Positions 1-11,426 of a DNA stretch of 21,674 bases are shown in pieces. The notes below the pieces were generated by a model, which saw only the letters and a program-made list of their open reading frames with translations, was not told the origin of the DNA and searched no databases. The position numbers and the translations under genes are program-made. Numbering within the stretch: position 1 is the stretch's first letter; the number at the start of each line of letters is the position of its first letter. Source of the DNA: a virus; IMG/VR virus record IMGVR_UViG_3300047557_001726, positions 1 through 21,674 of that record, one strand, 5' to 3'.

Positions 1-55
1 CGCGCTCACTTTGCAAACTTTTTACCTGCTACCGAAGATGCCGGCGGGGGGTGTT
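1..55 (-). other. Window edge downstream of the HNH gene
   Basis: This short non-coding stretch follows the HNH stop. On the minus strand a GTG (positions 9-7) and a TTG lie near the window edge, downstream of an AGGTAAAA stretch that could act as a weak ribosome binding site. A new gene may therefore begin here and run out of the window. Terminase genes often follow an HNH gene in this position, but too few codons are visible to identify anything. Confidence 0.2.
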
Positions 56-367
56 TTAATTATGTGCGCGATTCGACTTTTGTGAATTACAACTTCGGCA
101 AAGAACTTGAACATTGCTTGGAACTGATAATCCTCCGCGACTGAGGGGGATTATATGATCCACCGTCAAATCATTTGCCCTGCCACAATAAGAACAAAAT
201 GGTTGAACACTCCGCGCCCATTTACTAAGTGCCACCCACTCTTTGTCATACCCGCGAGCGATACGACTAGGGCGTTGTGATTCTTTTCTTCGCTGACATT
301 GTGTGCATCGTTTAGTTCTTACAACAACTCCACAATCAATGCAGGGCTTAGGAAGTAATGCCATCAT
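56..367 (-). CDS. HNH endonuclease (terminase-proximal type)
   Basis: The 103-aa protein has an N-terminal CxxC zinc pair (CIDCG) followed by a second pair (CTQC). The C-terminal half is a classic HNH module: CSYCG, then DHIIPLSRGG with the metal-binding DH, then an N and an LCRSCN-x-x-K tail. HNH nucleases of this size commonly sit next to terminase genes and assist genome packaging in siphophages; that role is known for relatives and is inferred here. Start: ATG at 367, with a second ATG at 364 also possible. There is no Shine-Dalgarno, but the gene overlaps the end of the endonuclease VII gene by 20 nt, so translation is probably coupled. It is the last complete gene of the minus-strand replication operon. 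Confidence 0.85.
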   Translation of the reverse strand: MMALLPKPCIDCGVVVRTKRCTQCQRRKESQRPSRIARGYDKEWVALSKWARSVQPFCSYCGRANDLTVDHIIPLSRGGLSVPSNVQVLCRSCNSQKSNRAHN

Positions 368-995: not shown

Positions 996-1754
996 TCAAG
1001 TCCTCTCTGTCACTTGAGTCTTCAGGGCTTGGACTATTGCTGCCAAGTCGTAAAGACTCCCCCTGCGTTCGATGTCGTATTTCTTGATGACTTTAAGGAC
1101 ATCTCTTTGAGTCATCTGTAACCATAAGGCAATCGCCTCAAGGTCTAGGAAGAATCTTTTATTGGGGTTGGACATTGCCAATGCCACCAATCGTAAGACC
1201 GACCAGGTTTGCTTACATCCGAAACAACTCACATCGTTTTGCAACTGCTCGACATCGATCACAATAAACTTCTTGCAATCATCTGTCGGACAAGGAATTC
1301 GTCGTGCTTGTTCGCGGAACTTCTTAGTCGCTGCTCTCCCCTTGGCGTGGAGGCTAAGAACTTCCGAGTGAAATTCTACCGCCCAATCCTGCGACAAAGA
1401 CCAGGAAAGGTGGACAAGGTGGAAGTCACAGGTCGCCTGGACTTCAAGTTCGGTGTTCTCGTTTTTAGGCACCAGCGCCGGCGGGGTCAACCCTCGGTCG
1501 CGCCTGACTATCTGCTCCCATCCGTGCAGGATGGCGAGCAGGTCGGTCGCCAGCGAGAAGTCAAGAGCCGTGACATTTATGCCAATGCTTCTCTCGGTTG
1601 AGACAAACCCTGATCCTGTCCGTGATGGCTCAAGGTAGAAGCCCGCCTCGAACTGCAACGCAGGCAGTTCAATCAGAGCCGACTTAACCTTCAGCTCGCA
1701 GATGAAGCAGGTGCCTTCTCGTTTAGAAGGGCGCTTGCAGATTCGACAGGTCAT
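996..1754 (-). CDS. Zinc-ribbon protein with C-terminal helix-turn-helix
   Basis: This 252-aa protein starts with a zinc knuckle at residues 3-19 (C3, C6, C16, C19). It carries a second zinc ribbon around residues 154-183 (CPTDDC then CFGC) and ends with an HTH-like stretch (DLEAIALWLQMTQRDVLKVI) that resembles a DNA-recognition helix pair. Similar HTH proteins are common in actinophage early regions, but no precise function is known to me. Start: ATG at 1754 has GAAAGGAAGG just upstream. An upstream in-frame extension lies inside the previous gene and is proline/serine rich, so it was rejected. The gene starts 32 nt inside the preceding zinc protein. Its position next to the 10-bp repeat array makes it a candidate for the protein that binds it; that is inference. 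Confidence 0.75.
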   Translation of the reverse strand: MTCRICKRPSKREGTCFICELKVKSALIELPALQFEAGFYLEPSRTGSGFVSTERSIGINVTALDFSLATDLLAILHGWEQIVRRDRGLTPPALVPKNENTELEVQATCDFHLVHLSWSLSQDWAVEFHSEVLSLHAKGRAATKKFREQARRIPCPTDDCKKFIVIDVEQLQNDVSCFGCKQTWSVLRLVALAMSNPNKRFFLDLEAIALWLQMTQRDVLKVIKKYDIERRGSLYDLAAIVQALKTQVTERT

Positions 1755-2076
1755 TGACCTTCCTTTCAGGTTTTTCCCAGTAGTTAGGAATCTCGGTGTC
1801 AAAGAGAACGGTGTTGGTGCATAGGTGGTCGGCGAGGATGCGGATGTTCTTCTTGCGCCCACCCTGGATTCGGATAAGGCTTCGCTCGACCGCTTCAAAG
1901 GAAACGGCGGTGCGGTGGCACTCGTAGGTCTTGCGCCCACTCAGGATGGCAACTATCTCTTCCTCAATGGTTAGGGTCTTCTTATCTAGCCTCTTGGCAA
2001 AGCCAGCCCAGGAGATGCCCTCCCAAACAACGGCACCGCATCGCCGGCAATTTATTGGTTTGAAGTTTTCATTCAT
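1723..2076 (-). CDS. Small zinc-finger-like protein, unknown function
   Basis: This 117-aa protein is unrecognised. Near the N-terminus it has CRRCG (residues 10-14), and later a Cys-His pair (YECHRTAVSFEAVERSLIRIQGGRKKN) that could complete a metal site. The segment around SFEAVERSLIRIQGGRKKNIRILADHL is basic and could contact nucleic acid. Start: ATG at 2076 has no Shine-Dalgarno, but its ATGA overlaps the stop of the ORF crossing the repeat array (2073-2333), so translation is probably coupled to that ORF. Its 3' end overlaps the next gene by 32 nt. Confidence 0.65.
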   Translation of the reverse strand: MNENFKPINCRRCGAVVWEGISWAGFAKRLDKKTLTIEEEIVAILSGRKTYECHRTAVSFEAVERSLIRIQGGRKKNIRILADHLCTNTVLFDTEIPNYWEKPERKVNDLSNLQAPF

Positions 2077-2333
2077 AAGTGAACCCAATCGCCGACTGAA
2101 CCGAACCGAACCTGACCCCCTCTAAAGAGGGGGGTCAGAGGTTCGGTTTCTTCGGTTTTCTGTGATTTTTTGGAGGTTCGGTTAGGTTCAGTTAGGTTCA
2201 GTTGAGTTTTTACGCGTAAATTACTCAAAAACCGAACCTGACCGAACCTATTTCCTAAAGTTTCAGGTTTGGTTAGACAAAATAACTGAACCTGTCCAAG
2301 ATGTTGCCTCAGGTTCGGTTGATTTAGGCTCAT
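2073..2333 (-). CDS. Coupled ORF running through the repeat array
   Basis: An 86-codon open frame crosses the whole 10-bp repeat array. Its ATG (2333) overlaps the helicase stop as ATGA, and GGGAG sits about 6 nt upstream. Its TGA (2073-2075) overlaps the next gene's ATG, again as ATGA. This is the junction style used through the operon, so translation is likely. The peptide has low complexity and reflects the repeats (GQVRF occurs twice, and NLTEPNR once), with no recognisable fold. It may serve mainly to carry ribosomes to the downstream gene, which lacks its own binding site. The alternative is that the open frame is chance and the segment is purely a DNA element. Confidence 0.45.
   Translation of the reverse strand: MSLNQPNLRQHLGQVQLFCLTKPETLGNRFGQVRFLSNLRVKTQLNLTEPNRTSKKSQKTEETEPLTPLFRGGQVRFGSVGDWVHL
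2113..2137. repeat. GC-rich inverted repeat inside the array
   Basis: TGACCCCCTCT (2113-2123) faces AGAGGGGGGTCA (2126-2137), one base short of perfect, and the hairpin is extended by flanking array copies in opposite orientation (2104-2113 and 2139-2148). The RNA hairpin is not followed by a U-run on the minus strand, so it is not a standard terminator. It could form a cruciform or a primer-recognition hairpin at an origin. Confidence 0.55.
2209..2220. repeat. Perfect 12-bp palindrome TTTACGCGTAAA
   Basis: The palindrome is centred at 2214/2215 and flanked by GAGT (2204-2207) and ACTC (2223-2226), which extend the dyad. Three forward 10-bp repeats lie to its left and two reverse repeats to its right, so it is the centre of a larger near-symmetric element. 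Its A/T-flanked CGCG core would suit a dimeric binding protein or an origin core; the function is inferred. Confidence 0.6.
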
Positions 2334-4387
2334 TTTGGCTCCCAGGGTTGCACATCATTAGCCAAGAAAATCTTGTGATGAGAATAGAGTTGTTTCTGAC
2401 CAACCTGACGAACAGCGACAGAACCGCGAGCTACTAGATGCTCAAGGGCGGTTCGCACCATATCTGACCCCATTCCGATTCCTTCATCGCGGAGCCTTGA
2501 CTTAATTTCATTGAAGTTCATCTCGTATCCGTGGCGCTCTAAGAAGGAGCTAACTTGTTCCATCCTCTGATCGGCAGATGAGACCTGAACCGAACCGCCG
2601 GTAATACTGACCGAGATGTGACCGTCACCGACAGAGCGGATGTTGGCAACGCCGACGGTCTTGGCATCAGGGCAGATGGCGCGGACAAAGCCTGGTCGAT
2701 CCTTCGTGCAAGTTATATCTAAGGCACCGTCAATGCCACGGCCGAACGGCAAGGACACCGAGACGGCAAAGGCCGCACCATCGATGTCGGCTCGCTTTGC
2801 CTGAGCGCCGATCGCATAATTGCCACGGTTGTCCTTGGATTTCGTGACATGATCAATGGTGAGGATGCCAGCGCCACCGACACGAAGTGGGCGAAGAACG
2901 GTCTGTGAGAAGGTGGTCGCATCCTTGTTCTTCTCAAGGTCTAGGTTCATCAGATTCATCGCTGCATTTACGCCGTCAACAACAATCAAGGTTGGTAGAT
3001 AAGCCATTATCTCGGTTCGCATTAGTTCGGCGACCCCTGGCTCGATTGCCTGGTCAGGGTTGGCATAACGGAAGAATTTGAACTTATCGGTTGGAACTTT
3101 CATTGTCTTTAGGCGATTTAAGATGCCTCTTGCCGAGTCCTCAAAATCAAGATAGAAGACGATGTTGTTCTTCTCTAGCTCTTGGCGGATAGCTTCTAGT
3201 GCAAGCCAAGTCTTGCCTGATTCTGATTCACCAAAGATGGCATTTATTTTGCCCGAATAGAGCAGGCAGTTGCCATCCTCACGGCGCAACATTGTCGGCG
3301 GGTTTTCATCTTCTAGGTCAATTTCTGAGAGTTGCTTTGGTATCCAGGAAGATTCAATGACTTCGCCTTCTTCATTGTGAAGCTGAACCATTGATGGTGC
3401 GTGAATTTCAAGAGTTCCGAGTTCTTTGCGGGCTTCGCCGTAGCCAAGGCTTCGCAAGGCTTTGGCAGCAGCCGAGAAGTCTGCGCCGTGTTCGACTAAG
3501 GCATAGACGGCAAATTTTGAATAGGCTCTTTCGGGTTCGAAAATGGTTGACGATGAGAAGACGAAGAACTTGTCAATGCCGGCGTGATTTGTTGTGGCGC
3601 TGATGCCTTCGGTCTTGCCTGGTCGCCTCCAAGCCGTCACCCCTGCCCGATTAGTGTGAACCTTTGTCCAACCTAGAGGTTCAAGAATCTGCTCCCAGGT
3701 GACTTTTGCGTTGTAATCATCACCAGGAGTTAGACCTTCGCCTTTGGGCTTGAGTTCTTCCTGGATGTTCTCTTGCTTCGGAATTGCATCAAATGTGGCA
3801 AACAAAGAATGAAGTTGAGAGCGTTCGGCGACCGTCAGGGTCGGGATTGACTTCGGCCCGCCATTTAGCATCTTCCAATGCCCGCCTGATGGATGGCAGG
3901 TGCCATTTGTCGGAGCGACAATGACAAAGCCACCTTCGCCTCTTGTTTCGGCTAGGACATCGATTCGATCGGCCTCACCTGGCCTTCTTGCGAGCTTAGT
4001 ATTTCCTGGCACTTCGCCATCGATGCGATAGAGCCAATGCAACCCGCCCGATGGTGTCATCTCTACATAACCATTGTTAATGCGCTCCCAAACTTCGCCG
4101 AGGCCAGCGTTATGGGCCATCTCTTTGAGTTCGATGTGGAGTTTGTCGGCGACAGCGCGGCCTTCAAGTTCGAGCATCTCTAGGTTGCCCGATACTTTTC
4201 CACAGATAACGCCAACGCCTTGAGCATCTGAAAACCAGGTCATCAATTCTTGGGTGTTTGGTTTTCTCTCTTGGTATTGCTTCCAAGTAGAAACCCCAGG
4301 GCGCTTTGATCCGTCGGTGGCAACTGGCACGACTGAGATGCCCTCGTTGGCAAGTTCGAGTGCAGTTAAAAGGATGTCAGTTTTCAT
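2330..4387 (-). CDS. Bifunctional primase/polymerase-helicase (PrimPol + RepA-like ATPase)
   Basis: This 685-aa replication protein has an N-terminal PrimPol domain (residues 5 to about 170): ANEGISVVPV, then an acidic pair MLELEG (E73, E75) where many PrimPols have DxD, GGLHWLY (residues 114-120) and EGGFVIVAPT. The centre is a RecA/RepA-like ATPase with a Walker A GESESGKT (about 386-393) and a Walker B LIVVDG (about 466-471). The C-terminus looks like a winged helix (MEQVSSFLERHGYEMNFNEI). It is expected to prime and unwind phage DNA. ATG at 4387 overlaps the methyltransferase stop as ATGA. The repeat array begins right after its stop, consistent with a replication initiation unit. E-x-E in place of D-x-D is, as I recall, usual in related phage proteins. 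Confidence 0.9.
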   Translation of the reverse strand: MKTDILLTALELANEGISVVPVATDGSKRPGVSTWKQYQERKPNTQELMTWFSDAQGVGVICGKVSGNLEMLELEGRAVADKLHIELKEMAHNAGLGEVWERINNGYVEMTPSGGLHWLYRIDGEVPGNTKLARRPGEADRIDVLAETRGEGGFVIVAPTNGTCHPSGGHWKMLNGGPKSIPTLTVAERSQLHSLFATFDAIPKQENIQEELKPKGEGLTPGDDYNAKVTWEQILEPLGWTKVHTNRAGVTAWRRPGKTEGISATTNHAGIDKFFVFSSSTIFEPERAYSKFAVYALVEHGADFSAAAKALRSLGYGEARKELGTLEIHAPSMVQLHNEEGEVIESSWIPKQLSEIDLEDENPPTMLRREDGNCLLYSGKINAIFGESESGKTWLALEAIRQELEKNNIVFYLDFEDSARGILNRLKTMKVPTDKFKFFRYANPDQAIEPGVAELMRTEIMAYLPTLIVVDGVNAAMNLMNLDLEKNKDATTFSQTVLRPLRVGGAGILTIDHVTKSKDNRGNYAIGAQAKRADIDGAAFAVSVSLPFGRGIDGALDITCTKDRPGFVRAICPDAKTVGVANIRSVGDGHISVSITGGSVQVSSADQRMEQVSSFLERHGYEMNFNEIKSRLRDEGIGMGSDMVRTALEHLVARGSVAVRQVGQKQLYSHHKIFLANDVQPWEPK

Positions 4388-4989
4388 TTTGTCATCCGCT
4401 CAATAATCCATTGGACAACAGGCACCGCCACCGCATTGCCCATTTGTTTATATCGGTGCGAATCGGCTTGGCCATCTGTCCATCCATCAGGAAAGCCTTG
4501 CAATCTCTCGCACTCTGTCGGTGTCAGGCGACGGACAACTTGTGGCGTTGCAACCGCCGGTGCTTGTAATCGATCCAGGGTATAAGCAGGCGCACCATCA
4601 TCACCGATTCCGGTTCCGTTTTGATGTTTCTCTAATTCTCTCGCATCATCTATCGGAAATATCGCTGGCACATTCCCTCCCCCTGTTCCCCATCGTTGAA
4701 TTACTGTTTGCATCACCGAATCTTCATAAACTCTGACATCACCAACGCGAGTGCCATCAAGAATGAAAACTGTGTGAAAGTTGGATGTTGCAAGTGTGAA
4801 TGCTTTATCATCACTCAAAAGAAATCCCTTCCCCCCCCCGCTCTTTCCTTCTCGTTCTCGCATTAAAATCACAACTGTTGTTCTTGTATCACCGCAATCA
4901 AAACCATTCAATGTCGGCACTACCCCCCCCGCAACCCAAGTCTCGTCATCATCGACCGATTGCGCTCTTTTTGATTTAACGAACCACAT
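4384..4989 (-). CDS. C5-cytosine methyltransferase, C-terminal part (motifs IX-X)
   Basis: This 201-aa piece completes the methyltransferase that starts at 5710. It holds the end of the target-recognition region (KSKRAQSVDDDETW, then PTLNGFDCGDTRTTVV), motif IX (RRLTPTECERLQGFPDGW) and motif X (YKQMGNAVAVPVVQWI), but no catalytic motifs. It is in the +1 frame relative to the N-terminal part and overlaps it by 14 nt. Start: ATG at 4989, or TTG at 4992, with AAGG 7-10 nt upstream, so it could be translated on its own and act as a second subunit, as in M.AquI. Otherwise a one-base indel or a +1 frameshift at the CGT-TAA junction has split one gene. It contains runs of nine and eight G on the coding strand. 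Confidence 0.8.
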   Translation of the reverse strand: MWFVKSKRAQSVDDDETWVAGGVVPTLNGFDCGDTRTTVVILMREREGKSGGGKGFLLSDDKAFTLATSNFHTVFILDGTRVGDVRVYEDSVMQTVIQRWGTGGGNVPAIFPIDDARELEKHQNGTGIGDDGAPAYTLDRLQAPAVATPQVVRRLTPTECERLQGFPDGWTDGQADSHRYKQMGNAVAVPVVQWIIERMTK

Positions 4990-5710
4990 CAATGATTGCC
5001 TTGTTATCTAGCAAATCATCTGCTGCAAGTCCTTTGTAATCTCTAGCAGTTAGCGTTCCTGCGATGGCTCGTTCGCCACTTGATTCAGCGCCTCTTGCAA
5101 TGGTGGTGGCAGAACCTTTCCTCGGCGCGTTGCTCTTCTCAAGATACCTTGCGCGGCCTTCTGCGATAGCGAGTATTTCTTCAGGTGTTCGCCCTGAGTC
5201 TCCAAGACATCCGACAATGAAGACTCGACGACGGCGTTGGGGAACTCCGAAGTATTGAGCATCAAGCACCCGCCATCCCACGCGATACCCGCGTTTGACC
5301 AACGCTTCAATGACGACGGCCATATCTCTTCCGTTATTTGAGGAAAGAAGACCAGGCACATTTTCGAGGATAAACGACTGCGCTCTTGTTTCGTCAAGGA
5401 GTCGGCAGATTTCCCAAAAAAGTCCACTCCGTTTTCCTGCCAATCCTGCTCTTCTACCGGCAACCGATAAGTCTTGACAGGGGAATCCTCCTGTAATGAT
5501 TCCATTGGAAGGATCGAATCCTGCTTGTATAAGTTGCTCACCTGTAACCCCCTGGATGTCGCCGAAAATTGTGGCGTTCGGAAATCGCCTTCTTAAAACA
5601 TTCTGTGCGTGTTTATCCCATTCGACCGATGCGGCTACAATGTAGCCACAACGCTCTAAAGCCAAATCAAATCCGCCAACGCCGGCGAACAATGACACCG
5701 CCGTTTTCAT
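4976..5710 (-). CDS. C5-cytosine DNA methyltransferase, N-terminal catalytic part
   Basis: This 244-aa protein transfers methyl from SAM to cytosine C5 in phage DNA, probably protecting it from host restriction. Visible motifs are I (SLFAGVGGF, residues 6-14), II (SVEWD), IV with the catalytic Cys (GGFPCQDLS, C78), VI (ENV, 116-118) and VIII (QRRRRVFIV, 158-165). It then enters the target-recognition region (TLTARDYKG) and stops at TAA 4976-4978, before motifs IX-X, which lie in the next frame (4384-4989). Start: ATG at 5710 overlaps the upstream zinc peptide as ATGA, with GGGGATGG just upstream. As it stands the protein lacks the C-terminal motifs, so it is a frameshifted gene, a two-subunit enzyme, or an assembly error. 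Confidence 0.88.
   Translation of the reverse strand: MKTAVSLFAGVGGFDLALERCGYIVAASVEWDKHAQNVLRRRFPNATIFGDIQGVTGEQLIQAGFDPSNGIITGGFPCQDLSVAGRRAGLAGKRSGLFWEICRLLDETRAQSFILENVPGLLSSNNGRDMAVVIEALVKRGYRVGWRVLDAQYFGVPQRRRRVFIVGCLGDSGRTPEEILAIAEGRARYLEKSNAPRKGSATTIARGAESSGERAIAGTLTARDYKGLAADDLLDNKAIIDVVR
5050..5541 (-). CDS. Overlapping +1-frame protein inside the methyltransferase gene
   Basis: A 163-codon frame lies wholly inside the cytosine methyltransferase, one base out of frame. It begins at GTG 5541 with GGGGG six nt upstream, a good ribosome binding site. The C-terminal third (SSLSDVLET, then KYSLSQKAAQGILRRATRRG and LPPPLQEALNQVA) reads like a structured protein. From memory it resembles products found overlapping methyltransferases in other phages, with a YxLSxKAxxGILRRAxxRGKxLP pattern. 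This conserved-looking part lies where the methyltransferase itself is poorly conserved (after motif VIII), so it is not simply a by-product of methylase codons. The function is unknown. No search was run. Confidence 0.5.
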   Translation of the reverse strand: MSNLYKQDSILPMESLQEDSPVKTYRLPVEEQDWQENGVDFFGKSADSLTKQERSRLSSKMCLVFFPQITEEIWPSSLKRWSNAGIAWDGGCLMLNTSEFPNAVVESSLSDVLETQGEHLKKYSLSQKAAQGILRRATRRGKVLPPPLQEALNQVANEPSQER

Positions 5711-5889
5711 ATTGACCACCATCCCCGAATCGTTCCTCCCTGTGGGCAGATGTTCCAATCTGCCTTCCCATCTGCAATCCATTGCCGATGAAGCCTTGCT
5801 TGTTCTTCAAAATCTGTCTCGTGAGTATCGCGCCCGCAATCAGGACAGATTTCTTGCCCGACATATTCGTAAATATGACGGCACTTCAT
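5707..5889 (-). CDS. 60-aa zinc-binding peptide
   Basis: The small protein has an N-terminal CxH (MKCRH), CPDCGRDTHETDFEEQARLHRQW in the middle, and a C-terminal CPQGGTIRGWWSI. The cysteines and histidines could coordinate one zinc. Peptides ending in a GTIRGWW-like sequence are familiar to me from phage genomes, but no function is established. ATG at 5889 overlaps the upstream methyltransferase stop as ATGA, and its own stop overlaps the cytosine methyltransferase start as ATGA. The 4-nt junctions on both sides support it as a real gene in the modification cluster. Confidence 0.75.
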   Translation of the reverse strand: MKCRHIYEYVGQEICPDCGRDTHETDFEEQARLHRQWIADGKADWNICPQGGTIRGWWSI

Positions 5890-10855: not shown

Positions 10856-10977
10856 AGAAGATTCGATCCGTCAGAGTAAGCGACCAACTGTGGGCGCGGG
10901 CAAAGGCGAAGGCGCGGTCAGAAGGCAAGACAGTCTCAGAAGTCATCGTTGACTTCTTAAAGGAGTTCGTCAAATGA
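10852..10977 (+). CDS. Ribbon-helix-helix (CopG/Arc-like) DNA-binding protein
   Basis: The 41-aa protein reads MKKIRSVRVSDQLWARAKAK, then SEGKTVSEVIVDFLKEF. This is one basic beta strand (IRSVRV) followed by two helices, the minimal Arc/CopG fold. Such proteins dimerise and bind operators. Start: GTG at 10852 has AGGAGG six nt upstream and overlaps the previous stop as GTGA. Its stop overlaps the PrimPol start as ATGA. It is a likely regulator of its own operon through the inverted repeats near 10366-10383. Confidence 0.72.
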   Translation: MKKIRSVRVSDQLWARAKAKARSEGKTVSEVIVDFLKEFVK

Positions 10978-11426
10978 CAACCGCCGAGATTGCCAAAGCC
11001 TACGCCGAGCGCGGATGGTTCGTTCTTCCTTGCTATCCACAACAGAAGATTCCGTTCTTTCCAATAGCGAAGCACGGATACAAGTCGGCTTCTAATAAAC
11101 CAAAGACTGTGGCGAAATGGTTTGAGAAGTCGCCATTGCTAAACATTGGCATCGCCTGTGCGCCATCGGGCATCGTGGTTTTAGATGTGGATTTCCGCAA
11201 TGGTGGCAACATTGAAGGCTTAAATCTTGACACCTTTACAGTTGCCACCGGCGATGGAATCCATCTCTACTATCGAGCGAGCAAGGGGGCGACCTTCCCT
11301 GGGAAATTACGCGATGGCGTTGACATCAAGTTCAATGGCTATGTCGTCACCGCCGGATCGATGCACGAGAACGGCAAGTTCTACGAAATCATCAAAGATG
11401 TTGACCTTGCGGAGTTGTCGCTGTGA
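10974..11426 (+). CDS. Stand-alone PrimPol domain protein
   Basis: The 150-aa protein is essentially one bifunctional primase-polymerase N-terminal domain: AKAYAERGWFVLPCYPQQKIP, IVVLDVDF with catalytic D71 and D73, GDGIHLYY around H97, and GVDIKFNGYVVTAGS. It keeps the DxD that the larger PrimPol-helicase (2330-4387) has replaced with ExE, and has no ATPase part. It could supply primers or gap-filling synthesis, while the large protein unwinds. ATG at 10974 overlaps the ribbon-helix-helix stop as ATGA; its stop overlaps the next gene as GTGA. Confidence 0.85.
   Translation: MTTAEIAKAYAERGWFVLPCYPQQKIPFFPIAKHGYKSASNKPKTVAKWFEKSPLLNIGIACAPSGIVVLDVDFRNGGNIEGLNLDTFTVATGDGIHLYYRASKGATFPGKLRDGVDIKFNGYVVTAGSMHENGKFYEIIKDVDLAELSL

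Follow-up and report, generated by a model that had tools for sequence, protein, structure and literature searches.

A putative iteron replication origin 3' of a PrimPol-AAA_25 helicase gene, apparently exchanged together with the C-terminal winged helix of the protein within a phage family

Described initiators and their origins

In phage lambda an iteron origin is tied to the phage initiator O; ori lies inside the O gene, and O is neither a helicase nor a primase. The DNA analysed here (the window) is a whole IMG/VR virus record of 21,674 nucleotides, which is classed as linear and is probably a fragment, and unlike lambda ori its repeat array is located 3' of the gene of a primase-helicase. 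This gene (positions 2330–4387, minus strand) encodes a protein of 685 residues, hereafter PrimPol, a proposed origin-binding initiator in which Pfam identifies a Prim-Pol domain at residues 9–175 (1.6e-12) and an AAA_25 domain at residues 375–518 (1.2e-7).

The Rep protein of SaPIs and the Cch2 protein of SCC elements bind iterons just downstream of their own genes by means of C-terminal domains (PMC7581432). SaPI Rep and SCCmec Cch2 are self-loading initiator helicases (PMC7581432), and the protein of the window, a putative initiator helicase, resembles them in having short repeats directly downstream of its gene and a C-terminal domain that may bind them, the primase being fused or nearby. 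The position of the origin-like array directly 3' of the helicase gene is the same, and the C-terminal domain is here predicted to be a winged helix, which co-varies with the repeats. The helicases of SaPI and SCC are however of the DUF927 or the D5/Primase_Cterm type, whereas Pfam assigns the motor of the window to AAA_25, with an N-terminal Prim-Pol domain, and in contrast to these elements the members of a single phage family exchange five apparent specificities here. In the PLE satellites of Vibrio cholerae the cognate specificity of initiator and origin has been shown experimentally, and the origin varies in step with the DNA-binding domain of the initiator, the two moving as one module between otherwise conserved replicons (PMC8263062). 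A putative DNA-binding domain and an array that co-vary and swap together are likewise found at the present locus, but the recognition domain of the PLE initiator is an N-terminal RepA_N domain with two described specificities (PMC8263062), and PrimPol is not of the RepA_N type. Its winged helix is C-terminal and, unlike in PLE, abuts the proposed origin, so that one recombined block carries both.

In pRN1 ORF904 and phage BIP-1 an AEP primase, a helicase and a C-terminal winged helix are combined in one protein, and the origin has a large stem-loop 3' of the gene (PMC4234260), where a large stem-loop is also found in the window. The pRN1 helicase belongs to SF3, whereas the motor of the window is an AAA_25 domain and not SF3, and the pRN1 origin differs in having no iterons, with specific binding undetected (PMC4234260). 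As cited in the same source, the alpha protein of phage P4 is a primase-helicase that binds the repeats of its origin by means of a winged helix. The primase of P4 alpha is in contrast a Toprim domain. To our knowledge no comparable swapping of cassettes is known in P4. The replicon of plasmid VBR1, shown to replicate, includes an AAA_25 (PF13481) protein and an oriV with direct repeats, but two proteins and a 570-bp AT-rich oriV are needed there (PMC12753305). Roseophage CRP-810 also has a Prim-Pol/AAA_25 protein in replication, and the passage that describes it mentions no origin (PMC11288001). The plan of the origin is already known; a search of open-licence papers gave no description of the AAA_25/PrimPol version with five interchangeable specificities, which is likely spread over many phage groups.

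The repeat array and its hairpin

The array (2099–2320) fills the 253 bp that separate the PrimPol stop (2330) from the next co-directional gene, which starts at 2076, and contains the repeat AGGTTCRGTT, here called type A, in both orientations. With at most one mismatch there are 14 matches in the window, against a mean of 2.2 and a maximum of 7 in 100 shuffles, and 11 of the 14 fall in the array, eight exact and three with one mismatch. The record of 21,674 bp contains no exact copy beyond these eight, and the reversed pattern, used as a control, does not occur in it. Short repeats in this intergenic stretch exceed chance, as in origins of the iteron type, and the iteron-like array in both orientations that was described in the original prediction is confirmed. 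Three abutting 10-bp iterons on the plus strand (2174–2203, starting at 2174, 2184 and 2194) are mirrored, as had been stated, by two abutting inverted copies (2230–2249, minus strand), the second of which, at 2240, has one mismatch. In short-form arrays of type A this triplet comes first after the PrimPol stop and is accompanied by one more iteron, the hairpin and an inverted copy; short-form arrays are about 105–140 bp long. The window carries the long form (about 230–265 bp) with an additional mirrored block, the two inverted copies being found in long-form arrays only, and the outer iterons of the long form are within 2265–2320, at 2265–2274 (plus strand, one mismatch), 2284–2293 (minus strand) and 2311–2320 (plus strand). 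The perfect palindrome TTTACGCGTAAA, around which the array was thought to be built, is present at 2209–2220, but the other long-form arrays lack it; as it occurs in the window alone, it was rejected as a core element and is probably incidental. Inspection by eye for an AT-rich unwinding element gave short AT-rich pieces that are not conserved across the repeat types, and the short-form arrays share no clear AT-rich stretch of this kind, which is a point against an origin.

The GC-rich hairpin earlier placed at 2113–2137 exists and is longer than noted, as its stem is extended by the flanking inverted iterons at 2104–2113 (minus strand) and 2139–2148 (plus strand) around the core CCCCCTCTTTAGAGGGG (minus strand, 2133–2117). 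The whole hairpin (2104–2148) has an imperfect stem of about 20 bp and a folding energy of -18.8 kcal/mol as single-stranded DNA (z = -5.3 in the window), and a hairpin of two inverted iterons and a GC-rich core forms in all five repeat types described below. The outer stem varies with the iteron type, which can be explained by concerted repeat evolution alone. Paired changes of the inner stem within one type, CAC/GTG or CGC/GCG in type E, CCG/CGG or GTG/CAC in type B and GAA/TTC or GAC/GTC in type A, appear to be a better sign of a maintained stem than the outer one, though they are few and amount to less than a formal test. A GC-rich hairpin between two genes might also be a transcription terminator, with the repeats incidental. 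This is hardly credible, as the hairpin has no T tract and was not called in a terminator scan, and as the copies of the repeat change type together and in step with a protein domain. A search of Rfam gave no match for the hairpin region, leaving both the terminator and the Rfam explanation without support.

Among PrimPol relatives in IMG/VR there are 78 distinct loci containing the end of the gene, and the array is at the same place in 77 of them, the exception being L199 with 28% identity; the conservation of the repeat block in relatives, a check set beforehand, is thus borne out. The repeat word varies among the relatives, with five types, A (AGGTTCRGTT), B (CGGAACRGTT), C (GGGAAACAGTT), D (GGGAACAGTT) and E (CGGCGCGGTT), and all copies within one phage switch together. 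In six records of 31–34 kb the iterons of the type proper to each genome are concentrated in the array, with one stray match, in G004. The type A doublet is found in 22 IMG/VR stretches, of which 21 encode a member of the PrimPol family of the window; L057, which has type A repeats without this PrimPol, contains a short tandem run before a RecA-like ORF, has no hairpin core and was set aside as unrelated. Five loci (L021, L030, L042, L155 and L170) have genes inserted between the end of PrimPol and the array, which stays beside the next gene, indicating that strict adjacency to PrimPol is not required. PAPS-reductase-like genes, as judged from their sequence, are located in the insert of L021 and L155, and in L155 and L170 part of the sequence of the PrimPol tail is retained beyond the insert. 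Peas-type Arthrobacter relatives share the N-terminal half of PrimPol alone, and have no intergenic gap after the gene.

The C-terminal winged helix and the exchanged block

The C-terminus of PrimPol shows weak matches, below the cut-off, to the winged-helix families PaaX and Penicillinase_R. AlphaFold (AF2), given the last 105 residues and 43 sequences, predicts helix-helix-helix-strand-strand with a block-mean pLDDT of 80–86 over the core, and the Foldseek matches of the model are mostly DNA-binding winged helices, the best being 2mh2 (TMt 0.92) followed by the DNA-binding domains of BlaI and Fur/Zur. The tail is thus modelled with a winged-helix fold, at about residues 605–670 (2378–2575, minus strand), and this is the proposed iteron-binding domain on account of the model, the Foldseek matches and the co-variation described below, the fold alone being no proof of its ligand. 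The domain has weak matches in two phages (E = 8e-3 and 0.3); the former is in Vibrio phage vB-Vv-ZX4290 (PV485168.1, 12660–12860, 37% identity), in a protein annotated as an ArsR family regulator. No cultured phage near-identical to the window was found. The window also encodes a second, stand-alone Prim-Pol protein of 150 residues (10974–11426, PF09250, E = 9.9e-28) on the strand opposite to the PrimPol-helicase.

Among 46 PrimPol proteins the 37 columns most informative on type A versus type B are all located in residues 601–685, and 19 columns separate the two types perfectly. The proteins of L040 and L049, both type B, are 95.6 and 94.3% identical to that of the window over residues 1–600 and 45.9% identical over residues 601–685, against 98.2 and 88.2% over the same parts for L009, which is of type A. 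A tree of residues 1–590 requires 16 changes of repeat type, and a tree of residues 603–685 requires five, with four as the minimum possible, all these counts being approximate because of short tree searches and some weak forks; the starred branches of the 1–590 tree alone force at least seven changes for A and for B.

The gene just downstream of the array (1723–2076, minus strand) encodes a zinc-ribbon-like protein of 117 residues (PHROG 10480), and according to the original prediction this protein or the HTH-like protein at 996–1754 might be what binds the array. The array does stay directly upstream of the zinc-ribbon gene even where genes are inserted after PrimPol, but with matched rows the trees of the two proteins need 15 and 12 type changes respectively (endonuclease VII needs 11), compared to five for the C-terminal part of PrimPol, and the 996–1754 protein is 94–95% identical to that of the window in L011 (type A) and L040 (type B) alike. 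Binding by either protein is therefore very unlikely, and both were dropped as candidates on the evidence of the trees. Between these proteins and PrimPol, the co-variation decides for the C-terminal winged helix of PrimPol as the probable partner of the array, which is in line with the other option of the prediction, that the PrimPol-helicase acts at this site.

In the A/B pairs L079/L103 and L018/L187 the DNA is 97–100% identical close to both edges of a divergent block and 38–68% identical inside it, the block reaching from about nucleotide 1790 of PrimPol to where the array ends, or a little way into the gene that follows. The window shows a similar breakpoint pattern when compared with L040 and with L049, and in some pairs the right breakpoint is up to about 100 bp inside the next gene. 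Near-identical phages differ by this single block of about 450 bp, from PrimPol codon ~597 through the array, and as the breakpoints enclose the C-terminal part and the array, one block carries both the recognition domain and the sites. By pairwise identity the approximate cassette of the window is 2076–2597, ending about the start of the next gene. The pattern has the appearance of a specificity-cassette exchange, for which recurrent recombination between types would be the simplest cause.

The conserved place and layout, the concerted switching, the co-inheritance with the C-terminal domain alone, the single-block breakpoints and the presence of the hairpin in all types are read from the sequences, and from them we infer that the array is very probably an iteron replication origin, read by the C-terminal winged helix of PrimPol itself and swapped as a specificity cassette. 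The candidate origin of the original prediction gains support from the relatives and from the co-variation with PrimPol. The terminal winged helix of PrimPol would bind the 10-bp iterons beside its own gene and gather the protein there, the AAA_25 motor would open or enter the DNA close to the hairpin, and synthesis would be primed by the Prim-Pol domain. Comparable steps are described for SaPI and SCC (PMC7581432), for P4 and pRN1 (PMC4234260) and for PLE (PMC8263062), and VBR1 is a precedent for a PF13481 protein acting with an oriV that bears repeats (PMC12753305). Since the recognition domain (the last ~85 codons) and the sites (the next ~110–250 bp) lie side by side, a single recombination event could replace both, and new specificities might in this way spread between otherwise near-identical phages.

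The main rival is an operator, bound by the same winged helix and regulating its own operon or the downstream genes, with replication starting elsewhere. It accounts for the co-variation equally well, the sites are upstream of the next co-directional gene, and BlaI- and Fur-like folds are found in repressors. However, the proposed binding domain is part of a primase-helicase and not of a regulator, no sigma-70-like promoter was detected in the region (by a method that may not suit the host), origins typically combine a dense array with a long hairpin, and in five loci the array is apart from the end of PrimPol. The fusion to the primase-helicase and the build of the array favour an origin, and an operator is considered unlikely. 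A cumulative GC-skew minimum at the array, which had been proposed as a check of the origin, was not observed; in the six longest relatives the extremes are at 8–9 kb, at 18 kb or near the contig ends, and according to CheckV no record is 90% complete or more.

Similar loci in other phages and a possible genome end

A search of IMG/VR with the hairpin core also retrieved unrelated phages. Their gene with its 3' end facing the hairpin again encodes AAA_25, combined with Toprim, a DnaG zinc-finger or PriCT_2 instead of Prim-Pol, and with other repeat words. In L212, L215, L220, L224, L235, L252, L262, L278 and others a repeat array and a GC-rich hairpin come after an AAA_25 helicase, and the partners of AAA_25 in this set are Toprim, DnaG zinc-finger, PriCT_2 or DnaB N-terminal domains. 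Outside the family, the exact core CCCCCTCTTTAGAGGGG is located beside AAA_25 genes at 24 of 42 loci, near-duplicates among them, but a control hairpin with a scrambled stem is also beside AAA_25 genes, in 12 of 45 loci. A universal 17-nt hairpin word was therefore rejected, the shared feature being a GC-rich hairpin and not the 17-mer. A repeat-rich stretch 3' of the AAA_25 gene is present in cultured phages of Paenibacillus, Bacillus, Streptococcus and Enterococcus, and likewise of Alteromonas, Salicola and Idiomarinaceae. In 23 of 25 regions outside the family the repeat score is reached by at most one of 200 shuffles and in one by six of 200, while L230 gave no repeat signal, the sample being small and found partly through the hairpin. 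An AAA_25 gene with an array and a hairpin may thus possibly represent a general phage replicon class.

It is tempting to go further and to propose, tentatively and with some doubt, that AAA_25 phages carry origin-specificity groups and that compact cassettes of winged helix, iterons and hairpin are traded between otherwise near-identical phages under selection to escape interference directed at the origin, the same build, with other primases and iteron words, being a general replicon class across many unrelated phages. Such interference could come from ectopic or prophage origins acting as decoys, from nucleases that cut origins, or from competition with co-infecting relatives. Extra, ectopic copies of the origin block lambda (PMC4488673), and the origin-directed nuclease with which some ICP1 phages cut PLE origins fits one PLE origin type only (PMC8263062), so that escape from interference would be a reasonable, if conjectural, cause of the switching. 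The analysis replaces a vague candidate origin by a specific protein-DNA pair that can be tested, for which evolution has provided natural swap experiments with five repeat types in dozens of phages with near-identical backbones. These constitute a ready data set on how a winged helix alters its recognition sequence, offer a way to predict which co-infecting phages share replication control, and give a rule for finding origins in uncultured phages, namely to search 3' of the AAA_25 primase-helicase gene.

In many independent records, G001, G002, G003, G005 and G006 among them, the hairpin is 2.0–2.3 kb from the contig end. Several left contig ends share a GATGCCACGGGGGG-like sequence (window 1–60), and in G003 (34.2 kb) GGAATACGCGGG is found near both ends. 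The recurrent distance and the shared end sequences suggest a physical genome end (cos) near position 1 of the window, and a genome of about 33–34 kb. It is highly improbable that the array itself serves for packaging or as a genome-end signal (cos/pac), or for partition. Its distance of 2.0–2.3 kb from one end in many contigs, with an HNH gene nearby, would suit the former and the binding of centromeres by winged helices the latter (5k5q is among the Foldseek matches), but no terminase or ParA/ParB was found beside the array, and the co-variation is restricted to the primase-helicase. On the other side of PrimPol, upstream of the gene, there is a cytosine DNA methyltransferase-like gene (window 4384–5782) split over two overlapping ORFs (4976–5782 and 4384–4992), and the second part of this gene is variable in the relatives, where it aligns in several pieces.
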